From Arenibacter aquaticus (GTDB lineage: Bacteria; Bacteroidota; Bacteroidia; Flavobacteriales; Flavobacteriaceae), in contig NZ_RQPJ01000015.1 in assembly GCF_003957295.1 (NCBI RefSeq), forward strand, positions 1 through 64,000: DNA of 64,000 nt, read 5' to 3'. Positions within the stretch are counted from its first letter, which is position 1. Each line of letters starts with the position of its first letter. The position numbers and the translations under genes are program-made. This document shows, piece after piece, positions 15,564 to 36,056 of this stretch. The notes below the pieces were generated by a model, which did no database searches, was not told the origin of the DNA, and saw only the letters and a program-made list of their open reading frames with translations.

Positions 15564-15656
15564 GCTGCGAAAGATTTATTTTCTTAACTATATAATAAAG
15601 GTCCCCACAAAAACTGACCAAATCATCCGAATCAGAAAAAAACCCATTATATTTTG

Positions 15657-15729
15657 CACGGGCGGAGAGGCTCGAACTCCCGACACCTGGTTTTGGAGAC
15701 CAGTGCTCTACCAACTGAGCTACACCCGT
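15657..15729 (-). tRNA. tRNA-Trp (CCA)
   Basis: A 73-nt cloverleaf read on the minus strand from ACGGGTGTAGCTCAG. The acceptor stem pairs ACGGGTG with CGCCCGT and the discriminator base is G. The anticodon loop CTCCAAA gives anticodon CCA. The 3' CCA end is not encoded. It lies between tuf and secE. Confidence 0.96.
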
Positions 15730-28959: not shown

Positions 28960-28990
28960 AAAACCTCACAATTGTGGGGTTTTTTATTTT
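28960..28990 (+). terminator. yceI terminator
   Basis: AAAACCTCACAA pairs with TTGTGGGGTTTT (28960-28983, one wobble) and is followed by a T-rich run. It separates the marR operon from the trp promoter 15 bp downstream. Confidence 0.85.
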
Positions 28991-29004: not shown

Positions 29005-29035
29005 TTTGTAAATATCAAATTCCTTCTTATATTTG
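29005..29035 (+). promoter_or_regulatory. trp operon promoter
   Basis: TTTG (29005-29008), 19 bp, TATATTTG (29028-29035): a full consensus match. Transcription should start at about 29040-29042, at the first base before the leader peptide ATG (29043), so the leader peptide would be translated from a nearly leaderless mRNA; the in-frame ATG at 29052 is an alternative start. Confidence 0.78.
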
Positions 29036-29042
29036 GCCTGCA

Positions 29043-29099
29043 ATGAAAAACATGGTAAAAAATACTTGGTGGTGGAACAACTTACGAAAAACATCGTGA
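29043..29099 (+). CDS. trpL: trp operon leader peptide
   Basis: An 18-codon ORF (MKNMVKNTWWWNNLRKTS, stop TGA) with three consecutive Trp codons (TGG at 29067-29075). It lies between a consensus promoter and an intrinsic terminator upstream of trpE, the exact layout of classical trp attenuators. When charged tRNA-Trp is scarce, the ribosome would stall at the Trp codons and terminator formation would be reduced. Three adjacent Trp codons in a short upstream ORF are very unlikely by chance. Confidence 0.85.
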   Translation: MKNMVKNTWWWNNLRKTS

Positions 29100-29127
29100 G
29101 CATAGCATCATTGTAGTATAACTATAT

Positions 29128-29160
29128 AAAAGGCTTGTCATCACGACAAGCCTTTTTTTC
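29128..29160 (+). terminator. trp attenuator terminator
   Basis: AAAAGGCTTGTC pairs perfectly with GACAAGCCTTTT (29128-29139 and 29145-29156, loop ATCAC), followed by a run of T. It lies 29 nt after the trpL stop and 57 bp before trpE. The last sense and stop codons of trpL (TCGTGA, 29094-29099) are complementary to TCACGA (29141-29146) in the terminator, a short candidate antiterminator; the Trp codons can pair weakly with CATCATT (29106-29112). Confidence 0.85.
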
Positions 29161-29216
29161 GTTTGGCATTAAAAGTAAAACCATTGGGCACCCATTAGCA
29201 AATACAAAGAACTATT

Positions 29217-30614
29217 ATGAAATATCAATTAGTATCACATCATAAAAAAATACTTGCAGATACCATTACACCTGTAAGTGTATACCTTAAAATAAGGGAT
29301 CGTTTCCCCAACAGTATATTACTGGAAAGTAGTGACTACCATGCCAATGACAATAGTTTTTCCTATATCTGTTGCAACCCTATTGCTTCCATAAAGGTTG
29401 AGAATGAAACAGTGGTGCAACAATTCCCTGATGGCAGTACCGAAGAAATTGGTATTGACCAAGAAACGGACATTCCTGCCCTATTACATAATTTTAGTCA
29501 GAAATTTGAATCACAGGACAACAGTTTTAAGTTTATCAACAACGGTTTATTTGGCTATATGGCCTATGATGCCGTTAGGTATTTTGAAGACATAGATATC
29601 TCCAAAAAGGAAAATAGCATCGCTATACCAGATATCTATTATGCCGTGTATCAAAATATAGTGGCCATTAACCACTTTAAGAACGAGGCCTATCTTTTTG
29701 CCCATTGCTATGAGTCCGAAAACAATATCGGGGAGATTGAACAAATTTTAAATGCCAAAAATTTTGCCTCCTACAATTTTGCAAAGGATGGGACTCCCAT
29801 TTCAAATCTACAGGACGAAGAGTATAAGGAACAGGTAGAGTTGGCCAAAAAACACTGCAACAGGGGAGATGTATTTCAGCTTGTATTATCAAGAAGGTTT
29901 TCCCAGAATTTTAAAGGTGATGAATTTAATGTATACCGCGCTCTAAGATCGGTTAATCCATCGCCATATTTATTCTATTTTGACTATGGCGATTTCAAAA
30001 TATTTGGCAGTTCGCCGGAGGCCCAATTAATTGTGAAGGAAGGAAAGGCCGAGATTCATCCCATTGCAGGCACCTTTAAAAGGACGGGCAATGATGAGCA
30101 AGATGCAGAATTGGCAAAAAAACTAAAAATAGACGACAAGGAAAACAGTGAGCACGTGATGCTGGTAGATCTTGCAAGGAACGACCTAAGTAGAAACGGC
30201 ACCATGGTAGAGGTGGAAAACTACAGGGAGGTACAGTTTTTTTCACATGTAATACATCTGGTTTCCAAGGTAAGCGGATTAAAGAAAAAGGACATCCCAA
30301 CCATGAAAGTGGTTGCCGATACTTTTCCCGCAGGTACTTTAAGTGGAGCCCCAAAACATATGGCGATGCAGCTCATAGAAAAATACGAAAAAACAAGTAG
30401 GGGCTATTATGGTGGCGCCATAGGTTTTATGGATTTCAACGGAAACTTCAACCACGCCATCATGATCCGTACCTTTTTGAGCAAGAACCACCAGTTACAC
30501 TATCAGGCCGGTGCCGGTTTGGTATCTGCGTCCAGTCCGGAAAACGAACTGCAAGAAACCTATAATAAACTAGGGGCCTTGACCAAAGCGCTGGAAATAG
30601 CAGAATCCATTTAA
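29217..30614 (+). CDS. trpE: Anthranilate synthase component I
   Basis: TrpE makes anthranilate from chorismate with ammonia supplied by TrpG. The 465 residues contain the LLES motif (35-38) where Trp binds for feedback inhibition, and the chorismate-binding C-terminal half (EIHPIAGTFKRTG, DLARNDLSR, AGAGLVSASSPENE). Feedback inhibition and the attenuator upstream would thus act together. First structural gene of trpEGDCFBA. Confidence 0.97.
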   Translation: MKYQLVSHHKKILADTITPVSVYLKIRDRFPNSILLESSDYHANDNSFSYICCNPIASIKVENETVVQQFPDGSTEEIGIDQETDIPALLHNFSQKFESQDNSFKFINNGLFGYMAYDAVRYFEDIDISKKENSIAIPDIYYAVYQNIVAINHFKNEAYLFAHCYESENNIGEIEQILNAKNFASYNFAKDGTPISNLQDEEYKEQVELAKKHCNRGDVFQLVLSRRFSQNFKGDEFNVYRALRSVNPSPYLFYFDYGDFKIFGSSPEAQLIVKEGKAEIHPIAGTFKRTGNDEQDAELAKKLKIDDKENSEHVMLVDLARNDLSRNGTMVEVENYREVQFFSHVIHLVSKVSGLKKKDIPTMKVVADTFPAGTLSGAPKHMAMQLIEKYEKTSRGYYGGAIGFMDFNGNFNHAIMIRTFLSKNHQLHYQAGAGLVSASSPENELQETYNKLGALTKALEIAESI

Positions 30615-30642: not shown

Positions 30643-31272
30643 ATGACAAAAAATACAGATAAAGGAACAAATAGCAATGCCCTAGCTGAAGAAAAAGGAG
30701 CTGGACAGGGACAATCTATTTTGGTAATAGACAATTACGATAGTTTTACTTATAACTTGGTGCATTATTTGGAAGACTTGGACAGCCAAGTTACCGTTAA
30801 AAGAAACGACCAACTACGCCTAGAGGAAATAGAAGGTTTTAATAAAATTGTACTCTCCCCAGGTCCCGGCATCCCCGATGAGGCCGGACTATTAAAAGAA
30901 ATCATCGCCATGTATGCCCCCACCAAAAGTATTTTTGGTGTTTGCCTAGGACAACAGGCCATTGCCGAAGTGTTCGGAGGCACCTTGGTCAACATAGACC
31001 AAGTTTACCACGGAATAGCGACCAAAATAGACATTATAAAGGAGGACACGCTGTTTCAGGGAATGCCCAAAACCATAGAGGTTGGCCGATACCATTCCTG
31101 GGTGGTAAATCCAGACCTTCCAGAAGTTTTGGAAGCAACGTCCTTGGACGGGAACGGACAGGTAATGTCTTTAAGACATAAGACCTATGACGTTTGTGCT
31201 GTACAATTTCATCCAGAATCGGTATTGACCCCTTATGGCAAGAAAATGTTGGAAAACTGGCTAAACAATTAA
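30643..31272 (+). CDS. trpG: Anthranilate synthase component II (glutamine amidotransferase)
   Basis: The amidotransferase partner of TrpE. The 209 residues carry the class I GATase triad: nucleophile Cys in FGVCLGQQA, His and Glu in VQFHPESV. A stretch of about 25 residues (KNTDKGTNSNALAEEKGAG) precedes the usual start ILVIDNYDSFTYNLV; it is low-complexity and may be a non-conserved extension. No fusion with TrpD. 28 bp after trpE. Confidence 0.96.
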   Translation: MTKNTDKGTNSNALAEEKGAGQGQSILVIDNYDSFTYNLVHYLEDLDSQVTVKRNDQLRLEEIEGFNKIVLSPGPGIPDEAGLLKEIIAMYAPTKSIFGVCLGQQAIAEVFGGTLVNIDQVYHGIATKIDIIKEDTLFQGMPKTIEVGRYHSWVVNPDLPEVLEATSLDGNGQVMSLRHKTYDVCAVQFHPESVLTPYGKKMLENWLNN

Positions 31273-31386
31273 AAACCAATACAAAAAAACTAAAAAAATA
31301 ATCTTGAACCATACGCAAAGAAAAAAATTGCCTAAAATAAAAGGATACCAGTACCCCACTCTAGTATCAAAACATCTAGTAAAAAA

Positions 31387-32379
31387 ATGAAAAATATTCT
31401 AAACAAACTGATCAATCACGATGTGCTTCCTAAAGAAGACGCCAAACAGGTATTGGTCAATATTGCCAAAGGAGATTATAACACCAGTCAGATAGCCGCC
31501 TTTCTAACGGTATATATGATGCGTAGCGTCACCATAGAGGAATTGGAAGGGTTCAGGGATGCCCTTTTAGACCTTTGCCTAGGGGTAGATCTGTCCCAAT
31601 ACAACCCTATAGACCTTTGTGGTACCGGCGGGGATGGCAAGGACACCTTTAATATCTCTACCTTGGCAAGTTTTGTAACAGCGGGCGCAGGCGTAAAAGT
31701 TACCAAGCACGGCAACTACGGGGTATCGTCCAAGTGTGGCAGTAGTAACGTAATGGAGTTTCTTGGCATTAAATTTAGTAATGATGCAGGGTTTCTGGAG
31801 AAATGTATAGACCAAGCCGGAATTTGTGTGCTACATGCCCCTTTATTTCATCCAGCCATGAAAAATGTAGCTCCAATCCGCAGGGAACTAGGGGTAAAAA
31901 CCTTTTTTAATATGTTGGGCCCCATGGTAAATCCGGCATTTCCAAAAAATCAAATGGTTGGGGTATTTAATTTAGAACTGGCTAGAATGTACGGATATCT
32001 GTATCAAAAGACGGATAAGAACTTTACAGTTTTACATGCCTTGGACGGATATGATGAAATTTCCTTGACCGGAGACACCAAAACCATCACCAACAGCTCC
32101 GAAGGTATGCTTAAACCATCCGATTTTGGCGTGGATACCGTACTGCAATCAGACATCGTAGGTGGTGATAGCATACAAGAATCGGCCCAGATATTTCTGA
32201 ACGTTTTGCAGGGTAAAGGTTCTACCCATCAGAATAATGTGGTATGTGCCAATGCCGGTATAGCTATCGCTACCGTGAAAGGGCTGAGTCCACGGGAAGG
32301 ATTTGAGGAGGCCAAGGCTTCCTTGCAGGGTGGTAAAGGGTTGGCGGCCCTAAAAAAACTACAGGCACTAAGTGAATAA
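31387..32379 (+). CDS. trpD: Anthranilate phosphoribosyltransferase
   Basis: Transfers phosphoribose from PRPP to anthranilate. The 330 residues contain the PRPP loop CGTGGDGKDTFNIST (from about residue 79) and the KHGNYGVSSKCGSSNVMEFLG block. A 114-bp gap without a recognisable signal precedes it. Confidence 0.97.
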   Translation: MKNILNKLINHDVLPKEDAKQVLVNIAKGDYNTSQIAAFLTVYMMRSVTIEELEGFRDALLDLCLGVDLSQYNPIDLCGTGGDGKDTFNISTLASFVTAGAGVKVTKHGNYGVSSKCGSSNVMEFLGIKFSNDAGFLEKCIDQAGICVLHAPLFHPAMKNVAPIRRELGVKTFFNMLGPMVNPAFPKNQMVGVFNLELARMYGYLYQKTDKNFTVLHALDGYDEISLTGDTKTITNSSEGMLKPSDFGVDTVLQSDIVGGDSIQESAQIFLNVLQGKGSTHQNNVVCANAGIAIATVKGLSPREGFEEAKASLQGGKGLAALKKLQALSE

Positions 32380-32394
32380 TAAAACAAATAAAAA

Positions 32395-32413
32395 ACGCCC
32401 TTTAATAGGGCTT
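32395..32413 (+). other. Small stem-loop between trpD and trpC
   Basis: GCCCT (32397-32401) and AGGGC (32407-32411) pair around TTAAT, followed by TTGTTTG, right before the trpC ATG at 32424. It is weak and may affect translation or act as a partial terminator, or be chance. Confidence 0.3.
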
Positions 32414-32423
32414 GTTTGTACAA

Positions 32424-33215
32424 ATGAATATACTGGACAGGATAGTAATAGATAAACGAAAGGAGGTCGATTTAAAAAAATCGATTATTCCCGCTTCACA
32501 ATTGGAAACTTCGGTCTTGTTTAACAGACCCACCATTTCTTTAGCGAATAGACTAAGGGAGAGCAGTTCTGGCATTATTGCCGAACACAAGCGTAGATCT
32601 CCTTCCAAAGCGGTCATTAACCAGAAGAACAGTGTTTCGGAGGTAGCAAAAGGGTATGAAAGTGCCGGGGCAGCGGGCATGTCGGTCTTGACAGATGGAA
32701 AATATTTTGGAGGCTCATTGGACGACCTTCTATTGGCAAGGGCCAGCGTACAAATGCCCTTGCTCCGCAAGGAGTTCATAATAGATGAGTATCAATTGTT
32801 GGAAGCCAAAGCATATGGCGCAGATGTTATTCTTTTAATTGCCGCCATATTAACCAAATCTGAAATAAAGGCCTTGTCAGAGTTTGCCAAAGGATTAAAT
32901 TTGGAAGTGCTATTGGAGGTCCACAATGAAGAAGAGCTTCGTAAAGCTATCATGCCCAGCTTGGATATGCTGGGAGTGAACAATAGAAATTTAAAATCTT
33001 TTGAGGTAAGTTTGGAGACCAGTAAGAATTTGTCCAAGTTAATTCCTAACGATTTTATAAAAGTTTCTGAGAGTGGTATTAGCTCTACCCAGGCTATAAA
33101 GGAATTAAGACCCTATGGTTATCAAGGCTTTTTAATAGGGGAAAATTTTATGAAAACAGAACATCCGGGGGAAAGCGCCCTACAATTTATAAATGAACTT
33201 GCCCCAAAACCATAG
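32424..33215 (+). CDS. trpC: Indole-3-glycerol phosphate synthase
   Basis: Ring closure of carboxyphenylamino-deoxyribulose phosphate to indole-glycerol phosphate. The barrel carries EHKRRSPSK with the catalytic Glu and Lys, LLRKEFIIDEYQ, LEVLLEVHNEEEL and GVNNRNL. I choose the ATG at 32424 (MNILDRIVIDKRKEV, 263 residues); an upstream TTG is unlikely. Not fused to trpF, unlike the E. coli protein. Confidence 0.96.
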   Translation: MNILDRIVIDKRKEVDLKKSIIPASQLETSVLFNRPTISLANRLRESSSGIIAEHKRRSPSKAVINQKNSVSEVAKGYESAGAAGMSVLTDGKYFGGSLDDLLLARASVQMPLLRKEFIIDEYQLLEAKAYGADVILLIAAILTKSEIKALSEFAKGLNLEVLLEVHNEEELRKAIMPSLDMLGVNNRNLKSFEVSLETSKNLSKLIPNDFIKVSESGISSTQAIKELRPYGYQGFLIGENFMKTEHPGESALQFINELAPKP

Positions 33216-33295
33216 GGAATATAATGTACCCTGTACCAAAAGTTCTAGTCACGTATCACAAAAGAGCCAATACCGGAACCTATAAATAATGAATT

Positions 33296-33994
33296 ATGAA
33301 CAGTAATGACGAAGATAGCCAAGAGCCACTGCCCATTCCTCCTAAAAAGAGCAGGGTTAAACTCAAGGTATGCGGAATGAAACTGAACACCTTTGAAGTG
33401 GCAGACCTAAATCCGGACTATCTGGGTTTTATTTTCTGGGAACCCTCCAAACGCTATTTTGAAGGGGATATCCCCAAGTTTTCCAAGGCCATAAACAAGG
33501 TAGGTGTTTTTGTAGACGCTCCTTTGCACCAAGTCCTGGAAAAAATAGACAGGCATGAGCTACAAGCAGTACAGTTGCATGGCCAGGAAACGCCTGAATT
33601 CTGTAATCAGTTGAGACTTTCCCGGTTAACAAGACCGGAAGGGGTCAGGTCTGCGGTTAAGATTATCAAGGTCTTCTCCATTAAGGACGATTTTGATTTT
33701 AGGAGCCTTATACCCTACGAAACGGTCTGTGATTACTATTTGTTTGACACCAAAGGTAAATTACCTGGCGGCAATGGCTATACCTTTAGCTGGGAAGTAC
33801 TAAAAGGCTACCCCTCCCAAAAGCCCTATTTTTTAAGTGGTGGCATAGGCTTGGATGAAGTAGCTAAAATAAAGGATTTTCTACAAAGACCAGAGTCCAA
33901 ATATTGTCACGCCATTGATGTGAACAGCAAATTTGAAAAAGAACCGGGGTTAAAGAAAGTAGATGAGTTAAAAGAGTTTATCAATAAAATATAA
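33296..33994 (+). CDS. trpF: Phosphoribosylanthranilate isomerase
   Basis: Amadori rearrangement of phosphoribosyl-anthranilate. The usual start KLKVCGMK with the catalytic Cys is preceded by about 22 polar residues (MNSNDEDSQEPLPIPPKKSR), so the protein is 232 residues, longer than typical 205-210. The catalytic Asp lies in DTKGKLPGGNG and the phosphate-binding end is AIDVNSKFEKEPG. The extension looks disordered. Confidence 0.95.
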   Translation: MNSNDEDSQEPLPIPPKKSRVKLKVCGMKLNTFEVADLNPDYLGFIFWEPSKRYFEGDIPKFSKAINKVGVFVDAPLHQVLEKIDRHELQAVQLHGQETPEFCNQLRLSRLTRPEGVRSAVKIIKVFSIKDDFDFRSLIPYETVCDYYLFDTKGKLPGGNGYTFSWEVLKGYPSQKPYFLSGGIGLDEVAKIKDFLQRPESKYCHAIDVNSKFEKEPGLKKVDELKEFINKI

Positions 33995-34004
33995 CAATGT
34001 TGCT

Positions 34005-34035
34005 GTTTTGAGAGTTGCTTTTGTAGGCTCAAAAC
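34005..34035 (+). other. Stem-loop between trpF and trpB
   Basis: GTTTTGAG (34005-34012) and CTCAAAAC (34028-34035) form a perfect 8-bp stem with a 15-nt loop. No T-run follows, so it is more likely an mRNA stability or processing element than a terminator. Confidence 0.35.
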
Positions 34036-34059
34036 AAAATACCATACAATGCTTTTAAA

Positions 34060-35241
34060 ATGAATTATAACGTAGACGACAAAGGATATTACGGGGAATT
34101 TGGAGGTGCTTTTATTCCAGAGATGCTCTACCCCAACGTAGAGAACCTAAGACAGCAATATCTAAAAATAATGGCCGAACCTTCTTTTAAAGAGGAGTTT
34201 GATCAATTATTAAAAGACTATGTTGGCAGGCCTTCTCCCTTATATTTTGCAAAACGGCTATCCCAAGAGTATAATACGAAGATATACCTAAAACGGGAAG
34301 ACCTCAATCATACAGGCGCCCACAAGGTTAATAATACCATTGGACAAATATTAATGGCCAAACGATTGGGCAAATCGCGTATTATAGCAGAAACCGGTGC
34401 CGGACAGCACGGTGTAGCTACCGCTACGGTTTGTGCCCTGATGGGTATGGAGTGCATTGTATATATGGGAGAAATAGATATTGCCAGACAGGCGCCGAAC
34501 GTTGCGCGTATGAAAATGCTTGGGGCAGAGGTGAGACCCGCATTATCTGGCAGCAAAACCCTAAAAGACGCTACCAATGAAGCCATAAGGGACTGGATCA
34601 ACAATCCGGTAGACACCCATTACATTATAGGCTCGGCAATAGGTCCCCACCCTTATCCAGATATGGTAACAAGATTCCAATCTGTTATTTCTGAGGAAAT
34701 AAAATGGCAGTTGAAGGAAAAGGAGGGCAAGGAAAATCCCGACTATGTAATAGCCTGTGTGGGTGGTGGCAGTAACGCTGCAGGCACCTATTATCATTTT
34801 TTACACGAAGAGGAAGTAGGCATTATTGCCGTGGAAGCCGCAGGAAAAGGTGTGGATAGTGGTGAAAGTGCTGCAACTTCCGTATTGGGAAAAATGGGGA
34901 TTATCCACGGATGTAAAACCCTATTGATGCAAACAGCGGACGGACAAATTACAGAACCCTATTCTATTTCGGCAGGATTGGACTACCCTGGCGTTGGCCC
35001 AATGCATGCCCATTTGTACAAAACTGGCAGGGCTGAGTTTATTCCGGTAACAGATGACCAAGCCATGCAGGCAGGAATGGTGCTATCCAAATTGGAAGGT
35101 ATTATTCCCGCTATTGAATCTTCCCATGCCTTCGCCGTTTTGGATACCAAAAAGTTTAAGCCGGAAGATGTAGTAGTCATTAATCTGTCTGGGCGTGGCG
35201 ATAAGGATTTAAACACCTATATAGAATATTTTAAGTTATAG
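34060..35241 (+). CDS. trpB: Tryptophan synthase beta chain
   Basis: Condenses indole with serine. The 393 residues contain the PLP-binding Lys89 in GAHKVNNTIGQ, the phosphate loop CVGGGSNA and the closing VINLSGRGDKD. A TrpB1-type length and the adjacent trpA indicate an alpha2beta2 complex with indole channelling. Confidence 0.98.
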   Translation: MNYNVDDKGYYGEFGGAFIPEMLYPNVENLRQQYLKIMAEPSFKEEFDQLLKDYVGRPSPLYFAKRLSQEYNTKIYLKREDLNHTGAHKVNNTIGQILMAKRLGKSRIIAETGAGQHGVATATVCALMGMECIVYMGEIDIARQAPNVARMKMLGAEVRPALSGSKTLKDATNEAIRDWINNPVDTHYIIGSAIGPHPYPDMVTRFQSVISEEIKWQLKEKEGKENPDYVIACVGGGSNAAGTYYHFLHEEEVGIIAVEAAGKGVDSGESAATSVLGKMGIIHGCKTLLMQTADGQITEPYSISAGLDYPGVGPMHAHLYKTGRAEFIPVTDDQAMQAGMVLSKLEGIIPAIESSHAFAVLDTKKFKPEDVVVINLSGRGDKDLNTYIEYFKL

Positions 35242-35288
35242 ACCTTTTTATTTACCAACCCCTTAAGGGATAGAATAATAAAAGTACA

Positions 35289-36056
35289 ATGAACAGAATA
35301 CATCAAAAACTACAGGAGAATAAAAAACTATTATCCATATACTTTACTGCCGGGTACCCCTCTTTGAACGATACGGCCAAAACCATTAAAGAGCTTGAGG
35401 AAAATGGTGTAGACATGATAGAAATTGGGCTGCCCTTTAGTGATCCTTTGGCTGACGGCCCTACTATCCAGGCCAGTTCTACCCAGGCACTTAAAAACGG
35501 AATGACCACAGAGTTATTATTCCAACAATTAGGGGATATACGTGAATTGGTTTCCATACCCCTAATAATAATGGGCTATTTTAACCCTATATTGCAGTTT
35601 GGCGTGGAGAAGTTTTGCCAAAAATGTCAAGAAGTAGGAGTTGACGGCCTTATCCTTCCAGATCTACCACTAGATGTCTACCAGGACCAGTATGAACCCA
35701 TACTGAAAAAATATGGACTTGTAAATATTTTTCTGATCACCCCACAGACCAGTGACGAACGGATACTACAAATTGATGCTGCTTCAGATGGTTTTATCTA
35801 CATGGTAAGTTCGGCGAGCGTTACAGGTTCCCAAGAAGGGTTTGGTAACCAGCAGGAAAACTACTTTAAGCGTATAGCCAACATGAATTTAAAAAACCCG
35901 CAGATCGTAGGTTTTGGTATAAGCAACGCCGAAACCTTTCAACAAGCCACCAAAACGGCAAAAGGCGCCATAATAGGCTCTGCCTTTATAAAGCATTTAA
36001 GCAAAAATGGAACGGATACCATTGGTGATTTTGTAAAGGGAATTCTTAAAAATTAA
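35289..36056 (+). CDS. trpA: Tryptophan synthase alpha chain
   Basis: Cleaves indole-glycerol phosphate and passes indole to TrpB. The 255 residues contain the signature MIEIGLPFSDPLADGP with the catalytic Glu, and YFTAGYP at the start. Last biosynthetic gene of the operon; only 2 bp precede the next ORF. Confidence 0.98.
   Translation: MNRIHQKLQENKKLLSIYFTAGYPSLNDTAKTIKELEENGVDMIEIGLPFSDPLADGPTIQASSTQALKNGMTTELLFQQLGDIRELVSIPLIIMGYFNPILQFGVEKFCQKCQEVGVDGLILPDLPLDVYQDQYEPILKKYGLVNIFLITPQTSDERILQIDAASDGFIYMVSSASVTGSQEGFGNQQENYFKRIANMNLKNPQIVGFGISNAETFQQATKTAKGAIIGSAFIKHLSKNGTDTIGDFVKGILKN

Follow-up and report, generated by a model that had tools for sequence, protein, structure and literature searches.

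The window, a 64,000-nt stretch of Arenibacter aquaticus contig NZ_RQPJ01000015.1, carries a trp operon preceded by a short leader region. The initial annotation had described a promoter, an 18-codon ORF with three Trp codons, a 12-bp hairpin with a T-run and trpE. Each of these parts was recovered at the position given for it, within the following set of features:

29005–29008, forward strand: TTTG, resembling a -33 element, the first half of a TTTG-N19-TATATTTG pattern
29023–29139, forward strand: match to the Rfam family RF01692 (Bacteroid-trp), covariance model, 55.5 bits against a gathering cut-off of 49
29028–29035, forward strand: -7 element TATATTTG, of the Bacteroidetes form TAnnTTTG (consensus from PMC6847099)
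29040–29041, forward strand: predicted transcription start, placed 4–5 nt 3' of the -7 element and 2–3 nt 5' of the ATG
29043–29099, forward strand: leader ORF of 18 codons, MKNMVKNTWWWNNLRKTS followed by a stop, assigned from the sequence and the comparison of relatives
29067–29075, forward strand: three Trp codons, TGG TGG TGG, the predicted ribosome stall site (sequence)
29128–29156, forward strand: terminator hairpin, a perfect 12 bp with the 5-nt loop ATCAC (arms 29128–29139 and 29145–29156)
29153–29159, forward strand: terminator T-run of seven T, into which the hairpin runs (sequence)
29217–30614, forward strand: trpE, anthranilate synthase component I (Pfam)
30643–36056, forward strand: trpG, trpD, trpC, trpF, trpB and trpA, in this order (Pfam)

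An intrinsic terminator thus stands between the leader ORF and the first gene, trpE, whose product has its nearest named relatives within Arenibacter (93% identity to A. palladensis and others). The gene ahead of the trp promoter encodes a YceI-like protein. Between that gene and the promoter lies a further terminator-like hairpin with a T-run (28960–28983), which may shield the trp operon from upstream transcription. A tRNA-Trp gene was also found on the reverse strand (window positions 15656–15729), about 13 kb from the operon, and its nearness is probably due to chance.

The RF01692 match identifies the leader as an element of a kind already known, since its score exceeds the gathering cut-off. 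Rfam describes the family as a tryptophan peptide leader. Its members stand upstream of trp genes in Bacteroidetes, and in the window the match is likewise followed by trpE from 29217. The leader also holds a short ORF with consecutive Trp codons, which we take to be a feature of the family. Matches over the cut-off occur in all 18 genomes of the genus and, together with the score of 55.5 bits against 49, argue that the attenuator did not arise by chance. More widely, in large searches whose strict filters lose weak matches, RF01692 was matched in 208 of the 299 genomes sampled from the family, with 184 of these exceeding the cut-off, and in 27 of the 395 sampled from the class, 14 of these 27 lying outside the family. 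The 91 family genomes without a match may lack the operon or carry divergent leaders. Bacteroid-trp RNA is listed by Weinberg et al., 2010 (PMC2864571), and its position upstream of the trp operon is mentioned for Flavobacterium psychrophilum (PMC6414381). The family model extends no farther than the terminator 5' arm, and its structure consists of the leader hairpin only; the 3' arm of the terminator and the antiterminator pairing that we propose below are both absent from it. No antiterminator for Bacteroid-trp was described in the literature searched, which comprised titles, abstract openings and passages, with supplements and most subscription papers outside it. The attenuator itself belongs to a catalogued RNA family, to which the present analysis adds a predicted antiterminator.

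The promoter suggests that the leader peptide is translated from the very 5' end of its transcript. TTTG-N19-TATATTTG at 29005–29035 is the sole exact match of this pattern in the window, with 0.40 expected by chance, and TGGTGGTGG is present once against 0.54 expected. Given these expectations, each signal is weak alone, and it is their combination and their conservation that carry the case. The first ATG past the -7 box lies 8 codons ahead of the first Trp codon in 144 of the 156 loci with a value (168 examined), and the inner ATG at 29052 is missing in 6 of 18 genus loci, both of which favour the ATG at 29043 as the start. This ATG follows the -7 element by 7 nt, so the earlier proposal of a start codon within a few bases of the likely transcription start agrees with the predicted start. 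The same gap measures 5–8 nt in all 18 genus loci and 4–8 nt in 67 of the 80 named loci examined, 72 of which gave a value; among the 156 loci with a value in the full set of 168, it is 4–8 nt in 54 and 14–23 nt in 81. In probable promoters of F. johnsoniae, transcription starts 4 or 5 nt past the element, and 87% of leaders are longer than 10 nt (PMC6847099). Leaderless mRNAs make up 5.5% in F. psychrophilum (PMC9723704), and 5' UTRs shorter than 10 nt about 3.7% in Bacteroides thetaiotaomicron (PMC7366714). Judged from its promoter, the leader peptide here is probably leaderless, and an untranslated leader of only 2–3 nt is likely here, which is unusual for the phylum. The attenuation mechanism would not require such a start, since many relatives have longer leaders.

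We compared the region with 172 loci, all of them chosen by their Rfam match, and after removal of four duplicates (L075, L095, L128, L164) a leader ORF with Trp codons and a terminator could be parsed in every one of the 168 that were left. Absence of a Trp-rich ORF or hairpin from close relatives had been named as grounds for abandoning the attenuator, and both were instead retained: all 18 genus genomes carry the family match, and Trp-codon leader ORFs occur in 80 of 80 named loci nearest by TrpE. Seventy-three of these 80 ORFs lie no more than 400 nt from trpE and seven farther upstream. The hexamer TCGTGA, which in the window comprises the last sense codon and the stop codon of the leader ORF, occurs in 66 of the 73, always exactly 18 nt past the Trp codons; in the seven named loci outside the 73, leader and motif stand farther upstream and another ORF starts between. 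This ORF, which separates trpE from the attenuator in these seven of the 80 Flavobacteriaceae loci, resembles a GIY-YIG nuclease by eye, the attenuator being kept upstream of it. It encodes 94 aa in L203, L207, L213, L230 and L231 (from about position 1175) and is shorter in L181 (from 1224; 71 aa) and L224 (from 1348; 31 aa).

Across the whole set, the motif is missing in 7 of 168 loci. In 158 of the 161 that bear it, UCGUGA or a variant lies 17–21 nt past the Trp codons, at exactly 18 nt in 118. Its relation to the reading frame varies: the stop codon falls inside the motif in 98 of the 161 loci, the motif is in another frame within the ORF in 31, lies past the stop in 30, and stands otherwise in two. 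That the motif is kept despite this variation argues for selection on the RNA rather than on the peptide. Tree-based counts of such changes (30 in the relation of motif to ORF and 14 in leader length) were not relied on, as they came from a quick tree of at most 110 TrpE residues with no shuffled control.

These patterns point to a switch built from three segments of the leader RNA, in addition to the terminator:

29081–29087, forward strand: apex of segment 1, CUUACGA, predicted from folds to pair with segment 2 when the ribosome is absent
29094–29099, forward strand: core of segment 2, UCGUGA, predicted from conservation, folds and covariation
29100–29106, forward strand: possible 3' extension of segment 2, in which GCA and AGC pair, with little specificity, with UGU and GCU of the terminator 5' arm (29133–29138)
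29141–29146, forward strand: core of segment 3, UCACGA, formed by the terminator loop and the first 2 nt of the 3' arm, predicted from complementarity and covariation

We consider it highly probable that this RF01692 member subjects the trp operon to ribosome-mediated transcription attenuation, with three ribosome-dependent states and antitermination by UCGUGA:UCACGA pairing, as sequence comparison and predicted folds suggest. In the absence of a ribosome, the long leader hairpin modelled in Rfam, whose tip is CUUACGA:UCGUGAG, would hold segment 2, leaving the terminator to form and end transcription. If tRNA-Trp is charged, the ribosome would reach the stop codon and cover UCGUGA, and the terminator would again form. 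When tRNA-Trp is uncharged, a ribosome stalled on the three Trp codons would open the leader hairpin and leave UCGUGA free to capture UCACGA, that is, the loop and the first bases of the 3' arm, as these exit the polymerase. This pairing would hinder nucleation of the hairpin, and the polymerase would continue into trpE.

Predicted folds agree with these states. Nascent leaders were cut off after the first 3 nt of the terminator 3' arm and folded with a mask that ran from the 5' end to 13 nt beyond the first base of the codon in the A site, which assumes an E. coli-like ribosome footprint; nine of the 168 loci, lacking a recognised motif variant, were left out of the masking, alignment and extension folds, leaving 159. 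Four or more expected pairs between segments 2 and 3 were predicted in 158 loci with the ribosome stalled on the last Trp codon, in none with the ribosome at the stop codon and in 37 with no ribosome. Under this assumed footprint, the antiterminator is thus exclusive with the terminator in silico and set by ribosome position. A narrower count gave 156 stalled loci, and moving the mask edge between 10 and 20 nt gave 155–156 stalled and 0–2 at the stop; with an edge of 8 nt, 25 of 159 loci formed the pairing at the stop. Shuffling the eight letters of segment 2 left 19%. Because 37 of the 159 ribosome-free leaders form the pairing, termination by default is not predicted for all loci. In the window, the stalled state is predicted at -14.6 kcal/mol and the terminator at -16.5 kcal/mol. 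When the whole terminator was offered to the stalled state across the loci, the terminator won at equilibrium, with a mean of 0.21 pairs between segments 2 and 3. Since equilibrium favours the full terminator even when the ribosome is stalled, the switch would have to be kinetic and act before the hairpin closes. Such a capture is plausible, as the loop bases should exit the polymerase before the 3' arm.

The case for UCGUGA:UCACGA as antiterminator comes mainly from relatives. In the window alone, the pairing is not significant: when the letters of the terminator top are shuffled, 5.8% of the shuffles equal it (P 0.058), so its weight rests on conservation. Between the region past the Trp codons and the terminator top, 149 of 168 loci can form an uninterrupted Watson-Crick helix of at least 6 pairs. 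Letter shuffles reach this length in about 6%, and a stretch upstream of the Trp codons does so in 9 of 168 loci. For a test of covariation, 156 of the 168 loci were anchored (L172 by its own variant), giving 76 distinct combinations. Across the six core positions, 98.9% of cells are paired, and sliding by 1–3 positions lowers this to 2–52%, a comparison in which the anchoring itself favours the core register. At pair 4, all 76 combinations pair (GC in 69, AU in five, GU in two), which exceeds all 5000 permutations (mean 71.5), the permutation ignoring relatedness; both sides of one base pair of the helix thus change together in five distinct sequence combinations. Two adjacent pairs are altered jointly in L172 (GUCGCAAU/AUUGCGAC). 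The outer pair 6 found no support (34 of 76 versus 30.4 expected, P 0.11), and pair -1 is uninformative because its terminator base never varies.

A 15 x 15 matrix of divergent types speaks against specificity: no more than 6 of the 15 rows had the cognate partner in first place, and for the window it ranked 7th, with means of -11.3 versus -8.2 kcal/mol. Only five consensus core pairs were supported in the alignment fold. In 155 of 168 loci, the best partner of the terminator top in an unbiased search lay 15–22 nt past the Trp codons, and shuffled terminator tops fall in this zone in 51% too, so the agreement counts for little. The extension into the 5' arm forms at least 4 pairs in 156 of 159 loci (mean 5.4), and shuffled extensions do the same in 74% (mean 4.8); it is kept only as possible, since they perform nearly as well. 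Among the seven loci lacking the motif, apart from L172, GUGAG pairs with the loop in L072, L139, L156 and L167, and pairing is with the 5' arm and loop in L064 and L066; in the distant L067, L069 and L070, which bear the variant UCGUAA, the best pairing is with the 5' arm. Taken singly, most of these alternative pairings are not significant, that of L064 being so (P 0.01). The antiterminator is most likely UCGUGA:UCACGA, a prediction whose comparative support is good but not complete.

Attenuation could also be real with a different antiterminator, through some other fold, with UCGUGA conserved only for the context of the stop codon or for its place in the leader hairpin. We regard this as unlikely. 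It would suit the presence of the stop codon within the motif in 98 of 161 loci, the ability of UCGUGA to pair with CUUACGA of the leader hairpin and the non-significant P of 0.058 in the window; yet the distance from the Trp codons is kept even where the motif holds no stop codon, and the partner bases in the terminator loop covary with the motif at pair 4 and in L172. The same reading could draw on a second complement. The initial annotation had found TCGTGA/TCACGA and called it the only complement near the end of the ORF; the pair stands, but its uniqueness does not, as ACGAAAAA (29084–29091) is complementary over 8 nt to TTTTTCGT (29155–29162), which includes part of the T-run. The ACGAAAAA side, however, is lost in many relatives, for example in those with CGTCAAACG.

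Two further readings keep the complementarity and change what it does. UCGUGA might form a pseudoknot with the loop of a partly formed terminator and so promote termination, and loop pairing would indeed still allow up to nine or ten of the lower terminator pairs, as judged from the sequence. The folds suggest, however, that the segment is freed under Trp starvation, so that the operon would be shut when Trp is short; this is the wrong sign, and we rejected this very improbable reading. TCGTGA and TCACGA also form an inverted repeat, as half-sites of a DNA operator for a repressor would, but with the motif at its fixed +18 offset the distance to the terminator ranges from 24 to 61 nt. Such variable spacing makes an operator scarcely credible, and it too was set aside. 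UCGUGA:UCACGA antitermination therefore remains the preferred reading. The earlier suggestion of a trp attenuator with the logic of trpL is borne out by the three predicted states and the conserved parts. Its companion suggestion, that the mechanism may depart from the classical 1:2, 2:3 and 3:4 scheme, was dropped: TCGTGA:TCACGA would be the conserved core of 2:3, the predicted states are classical and these three suffice. A classical scheme with a shifted antiterminator register is most likely, as the folds indicate.

The trpL attenuator of E. coli has tandem Trp codons in its leader peptide, folds that exclude one another and an intrinsic terminator. The Arenibacter leader resembles it in all of these respects, a logic also described in PMC7298713. 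It differs in having three Trp codons and probably almost no 5' leader, and in that the core of region 3 would consist of the terminator loop and the start of the 3' arm, whereas in E. coli it is the 5' arm. A leaderless trp leader peptide is already known from Sinorhizobium meliloti, where the trpL RNA begins with the trpL ATG (PMC7298713); that peptide has 14 residues and belongs to a distant bacterium, and the likeness is drawn from its published description. Within the same bacterial family, strong clues have been reported for leader-peptide attenuation at amino-acid operons of F. psychrophilum, in a main-text section that names no trp antiterminator (PMC9723704).

Comparable leaders were observed elsewhere in the same genome. 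A His-codon-rich leader ORF (MRRNKTHHHHFITCSQAS and a stop) with a terminator precedes hisG (L253, from 1187, forward strand), and an Ile/Val/Leu-codon-rich one (MKRNHIIINLVIVIP and a stop), also with a terminator, precedes ilvD (L255, from 1030, forward strand); no such leader was found in the scanned flank of a second ilvD-like match (L256). A Phe/Tyr-codon-rich leader (MTKQYFWNGFYFYFFFKGGRGLF and a stop) with a terminator precedes pheA (L254, reverse strand); Phe and Leu also abound in a second ORF that overlaps it, which leaves its frame uncertain. In each of the three leaders, the fold predicted for a stalled ribosome engages the terminator 5' arm.

Tentatively, and with somewhat less than even confidence, we propose that the trp attenuator of Flavobacteriaceae blocks terminator nucleation at the apex. 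A freed segment near the leader stop would capture the loop and the loop-proximal 3' arm on polymerase exit, and not the 5' arm as in E. coli and, it appears, in this genome's own leaders of his, ilvD and pheA; the sensor peptide would be leaderless in part of the family. For a catalogued RNA family with no antiterminator in its model, the analysis offers one that can be tested, and the conserved spacing between the Trp codons and segment 2 allows the ribosome footprint in Bacteroidetes to be gauged indirectly. It also suggests that the trp operon is controlled through translation–transcription coupling in bacteria that make no use of Shine-Dalgarno sequences.
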